NCBI GenBank assembly: GCA_003054655.1
Contig: QAYZ01000016.1
Coordinates: 806,001 to 870,000 of the forward strand
Length of the DNA: 64,000 bases
Source of the DNA: Spartobacteria bacterium LR76
Lineage (GTDB): Bacteria; Verrucomicrobiota; Verrucomicrobiia; Chthoniobacterales; Terrimicrobiaceae
Direction: 5' to 3'
Below, one piece after another: positions 27,509 through 32,321 of this stretch; position 1 is the stretch's first letter; every line of letters begins with the position of its first letter. The notes below the pieces were generated by a model. That model ran no database searches and was not told the origin of the DNA. It worked only from the letters and a program-made list of their open reading frames with translations. The position numbers and the translations under genes were made by a program.

Positions 27509-28010
27509 GAGAATTGTCGCCATTGACCCCGCGCTCCGGTCCACCGGATTTGCCATCCTGATTCGCGATGGAAAGAAGGTCTCCTGCCCCGAGCATGGCG
27601 TGATCCTCAACAAACCCCGGGTGAGCCAATCGGGCTGCCTACTCGCCATCCGCCAGTCCGTATCCGACCTGATCCGGAAACACTCGGTCGAGGCGATGGC
27701 GGTGGAGGGCATCATTTTTGTCCAGAGTTACCAGACAGCCATCACTCTCGGAGCCGCTCGCGGCGCGGCGGTGCTGGCCGCCGCCGAGATGGGACTGAGC
27801 ATTCACGAATACGCTCCCCGGCGGGTGAAGCAGGCGGTGGTGGGACGCGGCGGCGCGGACAAGCAGCAGGTCGCCTTCATGGTGCGCGTCCTCCTGGGTC
27901 TCACCGAGACTCCCCAGGCCGACGCCGCCGATGCCATCGCCATCGGTCTCGCCCACTTCCACGCGGTCGATGCCGCCAGGTTGAAAAAAGTCCCCTTGGA
28001 GACCATCTGA
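27498..28010 (+). CDS. ruvC: Crossover junction endodeoxyribonuclease RuvC
   Basis: A 170-residue Holliday-junction resolvase. The four catalytic acidic residues D10 (AIDPALRSTGFA), E70 (AVEGIIF), D142 and D145 (ADAADAIAIGLAH) are all in place. The ATG at 27498 gives the standard N-terminus MSVERIVAID, while a longer frame reaching into the GT9 gene does not match the family. It overlaps GT9 at one end and lipB at the other (TGATG). ruvA and ruvB are not in the window. Confidence 0.95.
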   Translation: MSVERIVAIDPALRSTGFAILIRDGKKVSCPEHGVILNKPRVSQSGCLLAIRQSVSDLIRKHSVEAMAVEGIIFVQSYQTAITLGAARGAAVLAAAEMGLSIHEYAPRRVKQAVVGRGGADKQQVAFMVRVLLGLTETPQADAADAIAIGLAHFHAVDAARLKKVPLETI

Positions 28011-28651
28011 TGAATATTTCCTTGTCCACACCCGGGGTCGAATGGCTCGACCGTATCGAGTACGCTGCCGCGCTCGATCTGCAAAACCAGATCGTCGACC
28101 GCTGCCAAGACGGCGGCCCGGAAAAACTCCTGCTCCTCGAGCACGAGCCCGTCTACACCATCGGCCGTACCCGGGATCAATCCAGCCTCAGGCAGCCGGA
28201 TTCACTCCCCCACCCGGTTTTTGAGATCAATCGCGGCGGTCAGGCGACCTGGCATGGCCCCGGGCAGCTCGTCGGCTATCCCATCCTGCGGCTCGCGGAC
28301 CGCGGACGCGACCTGCACCGGTACCTGCGATTTCTGGAGGAGGTTATTATCCAGACCTGCGCGGAGTGCGGCTTCTCCGCGAGCCGTCGCGAGGGCCTCA
28401 CCGGAGTGTGGGTCGCAGACCGCAAAATCGCCTCGCTCGGCGTGGGCGTTCGCAAATGGGTCTCGATGCACGGTCTCGCCCTCAATGTGACGATGGAATC
28501 TCTCGCCGCCTTCGATCACATCACTCCCTGCGGCATCGCCGGCGTACGGATGACCTGCATGGAAAAGGAGTCTGGGCGCTCGCTCTCCGTGCGAGAGGTC
28601 GGAGAGATCCTTTCGCGGATCTTCTTGCGCGACCTGCCGGCTCTCGTCTAG
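28010..28651 (+). CDS. lipB: Octanoyltransferase LipB
   Basis: A 213-residue lipoate-protein ligase B that moves octanoyl from ACP to the lipoyl domains of 2-oxoacid dehydrogenases. The LipB motif RGGQATWHGPGQLVGYP is present, and the catalytic residues K139 (DRKIASLGVGVRKW) and C174 (ITPCGIAGVRM) match the family. Its start overlaps the ruvC stop. The stop overlaps the convergent pepsin-like gene by 4 bases. lipA is not seen nearby. Confidence 0.96.
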   Translation: MNISLSTPGVEWLDRIEYAAALDLQNQIVDRCQDGGPEKLLLLEHEPVYTIGRTRDQSSLRQPDSLPHPVFEINRGGQATWHGPGQLVGYPILRLADRGRDLHRYLRFLEEVIIQTCAECGFSASRREGLTGVWVADRKIASLGVGVRKWVSMHGLALNVTMESLAAFDHITPCGIAGVRMTCMEKESGRSLSVREVGEILSRIFLRDLPALV

Positions 28652-29823
28652 CGCGACCGCACTGGACGGCGGAGCAAGGCCAGTACAAAAACTCCCAATC
28701 CCAACAGCCAGCTCACACCCGGCTCCGGAACCGCTCGCAGTCCGATGATCCCATTCTCCGTGTCGAAATAGACGTCGTAGTTATAGAACAGCGCGATGCC
28801 TGAGTTGAGGCTTCCGTCCCCACTGCCGGAGACAACGCCCACCTTGTCGACAAATTCCGTATCGCCTGTGGGACTGATCAGCCAGTCGAGAGCCTGGGAC
28901 AGCGTGATCCCGCCGACATACGTTTCGAAACTCGCGCCATCGACGATCCGCCCGTCACTTACCAGGGAACTCGTCGGGTCGATATCCGTCCCCGTCGTGA
29001 TATGAGTTCCGAGGCCGCCAGTATCGAGCAGGAGATTGGCCACCGCCGTATAGGTTTCCGCCCCTTTGATTATGGTGTAATTCGCGGTCGTCTGCGACTC
29101 CGGATAAAGATTGGCCGTCGTCCCATTGTCATTGGTCACCGTCCCAGTGGACGCATTCATCCGAATCTTGATCGGGAACAAGTCCATCTCCGTCTGACTC
29201 AGCCCGACCGTCAAAGTCGCCGAGGAGGAGGCCGCTCCCCCGGTATGAATCAGGAATCCCTTGGTCAATCCCGCATCGATCGGCATCTGGGCAAGCACGC
29301 TGACCAGCGAACCCGCTTCCGGCTTGGTCTGGTAAAGCCCGGCCCCCAGCGTACCGTAAAAAAGATGCGTCGTCGGGCTTTCTGGAGCGATGGGGTCCGC
29401 CACACCGCCGGTCATGTGATTGATGTCGGCATTCCAGCCCGTGTATGGCTCATTAGTTATGACACCCATCTTGACGTCGTTCACGGAATGATCGGTCCCA
29501 TTCACGTCGGTAAAGGTGATCTTGGTACTGGCCACCACGCCGCTATAGACAAGAGACCCCGTGCCATAGCTTACGGAAAAGGTCGTCGACGTCTCCGAGG
29601 TGATCGTGTCGTCCCACGCCGAGGTCGTTCCTTTCGCAGTAAAGAACCCCGCCGATCCCGTATCCAGGATGTAGGTGAAATACCGGGAATTTTCGCCCAG
29701 CTTGAGATTGATCCCAAGTTGTCCGCTGGCGGTTTCATTAATCAGCGGAATCACCGTTTGTGCTTTAAGAAGCCCGGGGAAACCCAATACCGCGAGCGCC
29801 AGAAATGCTGTGGAGGTGCGCAC
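28648..29823 (-). CDS. Pepsin-like aspartic protease candidate with PEP-CTERM tail
   Basis: A 391-residue secreted protein with a GTG start and a signal peptide (MRTSTAFLALAVLGFPGLLKAQ). Two DTG motifs are present, ILDTGSAGFF (Asp54) and LLLDTGGLGTH (Asp267), spaced as in two-lobed pepsins. A flap-like stretch SVSYGTGSLVYSGVV at residues 83-97 matches the pepsin Tyr75 flap. Near the C-terminus, YDVYFDTENGIIGLRAV resembles the last strands of pepsins. Residues 365-391 form a PEP-CTERM sorting tail: VPEPGVSW, a hydrophobic helix, then RRPVRSR. It would be exported, processed by an exosortase and possibly anchored or surface-released. Activity is inferred, not shown. Pepsin homologues are rare in bacteria, so a non-protease derivative is possible. 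Confidence 0.75.
   Translation of the reverse strand: MRTSTAFLALAVLGFPGLLKAQTVIPLINETASGQLGINLKLGENSRYFTYILDTGSAGFFTAKGTTSAWDDTITSETSTTFSVSYGTGSLVYSGVVASTKITFTDVNGTDHSVNDVKMGVITNEPYTGWNADINHMTGGVADPIAPESPTTHLFYGTLGAGLYQTKPEAGSLVSVLAQMPIDAGLTKGFLIHTGGAASSSATLTVGLSQTEMDLFPIKIRMNASTGTVTNDNGTTANLYPESQTTANYTIIKGAETYTAVANLLLDTGGLGTHITTGTDIDPTSSLVSDGRIVDGASFETYVGGITLSQALDWLISPTGDTEFVDKVGVVSGSGDGSLNSGIALFYNYDVYFDTENGIIGLRAVPEPGVSWLLGLGVFVLALLRRPVRSR

Positions 29824-29914: not shown

Positions 29915-32321
<2,407 letters not shown>

Follow-up and report, generated by a model that had tools for sequence, protein, structure and literature searches.

The gene described here is located on the minus strand of the window, the 64,000 bp stretch of the Spartobacteria bacterium LR76 genome that was analysed, and consists of an open reading frame with a GTG start (28648-29823) encoding a pepsin-fold protein of 391 amino acids; its strand was absent from the first-pass annotation of this DNA. 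It is flanked by tgt (29915-31420, minus strand) and by lipB (28010-28651, plus strand), the latter being convergent with the pepsin-fold gene and overlapping it by four bases. The following features were recognised:

28648..29823, minus strand: open reading frame comprising probable signal peptide, pepsin-fold core and PEP-CTERM tail, supported by orthologues and dN/dS
29761..29823, minus strand: signal-peptide-like N-terminus, residues 1-21 (MRTSTAFLALAVLGFPGLLKA), read by eye and similar in PEP-tailed relatives
29656..29664, minus strand: first active-site motif, D54-T-G56, in the N-lobe; DTG in 29/29 homologues
29554..29568, minus strand: flap-like YGTGS, residues 86-90, at the turn of a modelled hairpin
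29344..29361, minus strand: FYGTLG, residues 155-160, N-lobe psi-loop; pepsin counterpart FDGILG, family form FxGDFG
29017..29025, minus strand: second active-site motif, D267-T-G269, in the C-lobe; D[T/S]G in 29/29 homologues
28798..28806, minus strand: N340-S-G342, at the place of the pepsin C-lobe Ile-Leu-Gly; family form N-T-G
28738..28779, minus strand: C-terminal YDVYFDTENGIIGL, residues 349-362; pepsin counterpart YYTVFDRANNKVGL
28651..28731, minus strand: PEP-CTERM tail, residues 365-391, recognised by TIGR02595 and present in both congeners

The first-pass annotation had reported a secretion signal and four pepsin hallmarks, and its residue numbers are right throughout (DTG 54-56, YGTGS 86-90, DTG 267-269 and the C-terminal block 349-362); the signal-peptide-like segment occupies residues 1-21, with a probable SPase I site at A21/Q22. 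Two orthologues from other species of the same genus share 83-86% identity with the protein, and the order tgt, pepsin-fold gene, lipB is retained in L027, the one congener checked. The core displays a dN/dS (NG86) of approximately 0.07-0.09, which indicates purifying selection on the gene, while the PEP-CTERM tail evolves faster by the same measure. Based on these orthologues, the retained synteny, the low dN/dS of the core and the invariant Asp motifs, the open reading frame is real and not a chance occurrence. In G014, a more distant genome of the same family, a relative of the window gene that is not its nearest homologue is found directly downstream of tgt. A simple scan for a sigma-70-like promoter found none.

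From 18 aligned sequences, AF2 modelled the core of the window protein with a pTM of 0.83 and a pLDDT of 79, part of an N-lobe loop (core residues 109-135) being poorly modelled. The best 50 Foldseek matches in the PDB all have the pepsin fold and are nearly all aspartic proteases, chymosin being on top (E 2e-13). VIA-align gave Z scores of 23.2 with rat cathepsin D and 23.1 with human pepsin, over core residues 2-345 (274-276 residues aligned, rmsd 3.1-3.4), at a sequence identity with pepsin of about 17%. Both lobes span the core and each carries one D[T/S]G, which bears out the pepsin-like architecture that had been proposed from the motifs; this full-length match implies that D54 and D267 would be opposed across the cleft. 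The model of a Mycolicibacterium member (pTM 0.89, Z 23.2 to penicillopepsin) was built from the same 18 sequences with that member placed first, and the two models are not mutually independent. Searching the PDB with the family profile, by sequence only, placed candidapepsin, cardosin and plasmepsin on top with E values of at least 0.02, while the single window sequence retrieved only a chance match to a restriction enzyme and its hhalign comparison with porcine pepsin gave no confident alignment. A single-lobe homodimer of the retropepsin (A2-like) type was also considered and ruled out: retropepsin-type enzymes such as Rickettsia APRc and those of P. aeruginosa (PMC12239564) are likewise bacterial aspartic proteases, some of them secreted, but they are single-lobed, whereas the window chain has both lobes and both Asp motifs.

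Motif conservation was followed in 29 homologues from five phyla, most of which share only 22-30% identity with the core of the window protein. The flap aromatic is Tyr or Phe in 29/29 and G89 is present in nearly all, the surrounding hairpin strands of the model being core residues 55-67 and 72-86; at the N340-S-G342 site, Asn occurs in 29/29 and Gly in 28/29. Pepsin folds without catalysis exist, for example the plant TAXi xylanase inhibitors and basic 7S globulin, and the window protein might serve at the surface in adhesion or in carbohydrate or protein binding. The altered hhG motifs of the psi-loops, a weak, sub-threshold TAXi_N match of the window protein and the GH26-like genes that adjoin some relatives would fit such a role, as would the observation that PEP-CTERM proteins usually are not recognisable enzymes (PMC1569441). 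Loss of catalysis, however, is usually followed by motif drift, comparable to the D-I/M-G second motif of a companion subfamily, whereas in this family both Asp motifs show no drift at all and an aromatic flap residue is retained throughout; we consider a non-catalytic binding protein unlikely.

The first-pass annotation had called the protein an A1-type pepsin. Like family A1 (pepsin, cathepsin D, renin), it has a two-lobed fold over the full core, the DTG...DTG order, a flap-like aromatic (Y86 for the A1 flap tyrosine, Tyr75 of pepsin; Tyr or Phe in the homologues), an FxGxxG motif and the C-terminal V-x-F-D...G-L block. Unlike A1, it stays under the PF00026 gathering score, with an N-lobe match only (E 0.011, 15.7 bits versus 19.9), and the hydrophobic-hydrophobic-Gly (hhG) of each psi-loop, placed by eye against pepsin, is replaced, in the N-lobe by T-L-G (window protein) or D-F-G and in the C-lobe by N-S/T-G. 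Rawlings and Bateman regard hhG as present in every A1 sequence that is known or predicted to be active, and take its loss to indicate inactivity (PMC2761423). Since the residues that replace it are in turn conserved in five phyla, we read the altered hhG as a family variant, which still counts against strict A1 membership. Also unlike A1, the protein is bacterial and PEP-CTERM-tailed, contains zero cysteines and has about 33 residues between the probable signal peptide and D54, and therefore no room for a pepsin-type prosegment. A true A1 member of eukaryotic origin, to which a PEP-CTERM tail was added, would account for the both-lobe fold match (Z about 23) and for the one orthologue marginally over the PF00026 cut-off (20 versus 19.9), but is very improbable given the absence of A1-style hhG motifs, prosegment and cysteines, the low identity with pepsin, the sub-threshold score of the window protein itself, and a branching so deep over five bacterial phyla that it does not resemble a recent eukaryotic transfer. 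The lobes, Asp motifs and flap of the original assignment thus stand, while its A1 label does not, and the protein is better placed in a family of pepsin fold (clan AA-like) that falls outside PF00026. Having neither space for a prosegment nor any cysteine, it is probably not a classical zymogen. Nor should an acid optimum be taken for granted, because a prosegment is absent and the second DTG is directly followed by Ala or Gly in most of the wider family; Ala at this position of renin and retropepsin has been linked to near-neutral activity (PMC2761423).

The PEP-CTERM tail that had been assigned to residues 365-391 passes NCBIfam TIGR02595 with a modest score (18.0 bits, cut-off 16) and is marginally below the cut-off of Pfam PF07589 (19.2 versus 20.7). 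It is composed of VPEP, a hydrophobic helix and an RR-rich end, and starts directly after the last core strand. The signal peptide of the window protein looks clear by eye, and signal-like N-termini were found in 16/16 PEP-tailed members. The search for an exosortase, suggested together with the tail, was successful: the window genome (contigs C1-C16) encodes a single clear one at C10:566938-567723 (PF09721 E 1e-44; TIGR02602 133.7 bits, cut-off 105.55), beside a gene that reads as EpsI-like, and possesses about 100 PEP-CTERM ORFs. Putative signal peptide, VPEP-helix-RR tail, large number of tailed proteins per genome and presence of an exosortase are all as described for PEP-CTERM cargo (PMC1569441, TIGR02595), among which, unlike here, recognisable enzyme homologues are rare (PMC1569441). 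Among 15 family-bearing genomes, an exosortase is present in every one having a PEP-tailed copy, and in none of three genomes (Mycolicibacterium, Rhodospirillales, Acidisoma) in which the untailed copies form part of beta-helix or Hint_2 fusions. Untailed copies are also found in exosortase-bearing genomes (G032, G205, G217 and G425), which argues that the core family does not itself include the tail, and that the tail was added to it. In one relative, roughly 4 kb separates the gene from that of an exosortase.

Profile and protein searches identified four diverged copies in the window genome, all PEP-tailed. The family is rare and patchily spread, with relatives in 5/388 genomes of the phylum sample (window genome counted), family matches in 5/244 cyanobacterial genomes, some of them partial, and a profile match in 1/201 genomes of the taxonomic family of Mycolicibacterium. 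A scan of genome contigs with a 6-row alignment yielded 18 loci, distributed over Verrucomicrobia, Planctomycetes, Actinomycetota (Mycobacterium, Mycolicibacterium rhodesiae), Cyanobacteria and Alphaproteobacteria (Acidisoma, Rhodospirillales). No model matching the core was found in Pfam and NCBIfam, and no family match in a plasmid search; a PHROGs match was at chance level only. Kinship with floc_PepA (NCBIfam, full protein, E 6e-7) was rejected, since this match vanishes when the tail is omitted and thus reflects the tail.

PEP-CTERM is one carrier among several: beta-helix, AIDA or Hint_2 modules take its place in relatives from Mycobacterium, Planctomycetes and Acetobacteria. In three alphaproteobacterial loci (L029, L035, L038) a Hint_2 domain directly follows the core, preceded in L035 and L038 by AIDA-type stalk repeats before the core, while in L030, L031, L037, L040 and L043 the core lies inside large repeat-flanked proteins, with Pfam beta-helix/NosD confirmed in L031 and L037. 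Two verrucomicrobial loci, L018 and L019, are without obvious signal peptide or PEP-CTERM tail, and several exosortases are present in their genomes. In the family tree, whose internal branches run deep and span five bacterial phyla, delivery types cluster and few changes are needed, and the four copies of the window genome do not form one clade.

Hint_2 is a self-processing type of domain. Its presence raises the alternative of an autoproteolytic module that cuts only its own polypeptide or an immediate partner during surface display, in line with the embedding of the core, in other phyla, in giant surface-type proteins with AIDA stalks plus Hint_2 or with beta-helix repeats, and with the cleavage by PecA of itself and of other PE_PGRS proteins (PMC6819658). 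The window core, however, amounts to approximately the whole mature protein and runs into the tail, leaving little to self-process, and four diverged copies in one genome argue for several substrates, so that purely autoproteolytic function appears improbable.

Bacterial aspartic proteases are generally regarded as cytoplasmic (PMC6819658), and a 2009 survey predicted an intracellular location for every bacterial pepsin homologue that it covered (PMC2761423). Proteins of the shewasin A/D group are also bacterial and two-lobed, shewasin A likewise being without a prosegment, and activity of the shewasins has been shown (PMC2761423, PMC4814920); unlike the window family, which is predicted to be mostly exported and surface-sorted, they are cytosolic, have no signal peptide and most retain hhG. 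The PecA / PE_PGRS16 aspartic protease domain of mycobacteria (PMC6819658) resembles the window family in being bacterial, surface-delivered and equipped with DTG/DSG motifs, and the sorting module of PecA is common to its substrates. PecA differs, from its description, in being delivered by type VII secretion via a PE domain. PE_PGRS16 (4EHC) is not among the structure and profile matches listed, which says nothing either way on kinship with PecA. PecA is the nearest functional precedent, and a bacterial surface aspartic protease is not unprecedented (PMC6819658). The first-pass annotation had suggested an undescribed surface protease class. As to the class, the tail does not define it, relatives being carried by beta-helix, AIDA and Hint_2 modules, and PecA precedes it at the surface; the family itself is not described in the literature searched. 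The statement in the first-pass annotation that no exosortase-sorted pepsin was known to be described agrees with our search, in which no open-access paper was found with both 'PEP-CTERM' and 'pepsin', and none reporting pepsin-like exosortase cargo, which is not proof of absence.

The protein thus has a genuine pepsin fold with two Asp motifs, a PEP-CTERM tag and a predicted export signal, and is most likely an active surface protease. Its fold and mechanism have precedents; no description of the family or of its sorting was found in the open-access sources searched, which again does not prove their absence. We consider it quite likely that the protein is a secreted, monomeric, disulphide-free, two-lobed pepsin-fold aspartic endopeptidase that is sorted by exosortase and cuts surface proteins. 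It would be exported by Sec and trimmed at about A21, after which the C-terminal helix would hold it in the inner membrane until handover to the genome's single exosortase, which would cut at the PEP motif and allow release or attachment at the cell surface or exopolysaccharide. Catalysis would rely on a water between the lobes, activated by D54 and D267, with the Tyr86-bearing hairpin closed over the peptide. The likeliest role would be surface proteolysis, with neighbouring PEP-CTERM proteins, the protein itself or food proteins as examples of putative substrates.

More tentatively, and as a possibility that we hold somewhat short of probable, the family may represent a new group of bacterial secreted two-lobed aspartic proteases outside A1 as drawn by PF00026, with its own psi-loop signature (FxGDFG and N-T-G), fitted to delivery by exosortase/PEP-CTERM, AIDA/Hint_2 or beta-helix and occurring in some Verrucomicrobia and Planctomycetes as sets of two or three paralogues, including the D-I/M-G subfamily; some members would mature a PEP-CTERM surface proteome, a role like that of PecA towards PE_PGRS proteins. 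Such a family, secreted, two-lobed and thinly scattered across at least five phyla, is relevant to the timing of the pepsin gene duplication, because it forms a two-lobed bacterial branch without an obvious origin in eukaryotic A1. Exosortase systems would gain one cargo with a testable enzymatic activity, the approximately 100 cargo proteins of this genome being mostly without known function.

Profile comparisons tie two further subfamilies to the pepsin-like core, B (the L003 type) with an E value of 1.8e-21 and the companion subfamily C with 1.4e-7. Subfamily C, in which the first DTG is kept and is followed by a D-I/M-G second motif and then NTG, adjoins the core or is fused to it; to judge from these motifs it is possibly a half-active partner. 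It was sought in the window genome and not found, which places it outside the system of the window. The pepsin-like gene of G014 shares a four-base overlap with another PEP-CTERM gene, whose product has LDTGS, VVVDIGI replacing the second DTG, and then NTG, and in two Planctomycetes proteins subfamily C-like proteins are fused to the core. Subfamily C loci are L055:6257-7654 (minus strand), L041:1180-2604 (minus strand) and the second modules of L037 and L043. GH26-like glycosidase genes are found near companion clusters; at L041:1180-5242, from a Spartobacteria MAG, a cluster of three diverged genes of the pepsin-like type, belonging to subfamilies C, B and A and all with PEP-CTERM-like tails, lies beside such a GH26-like gene.
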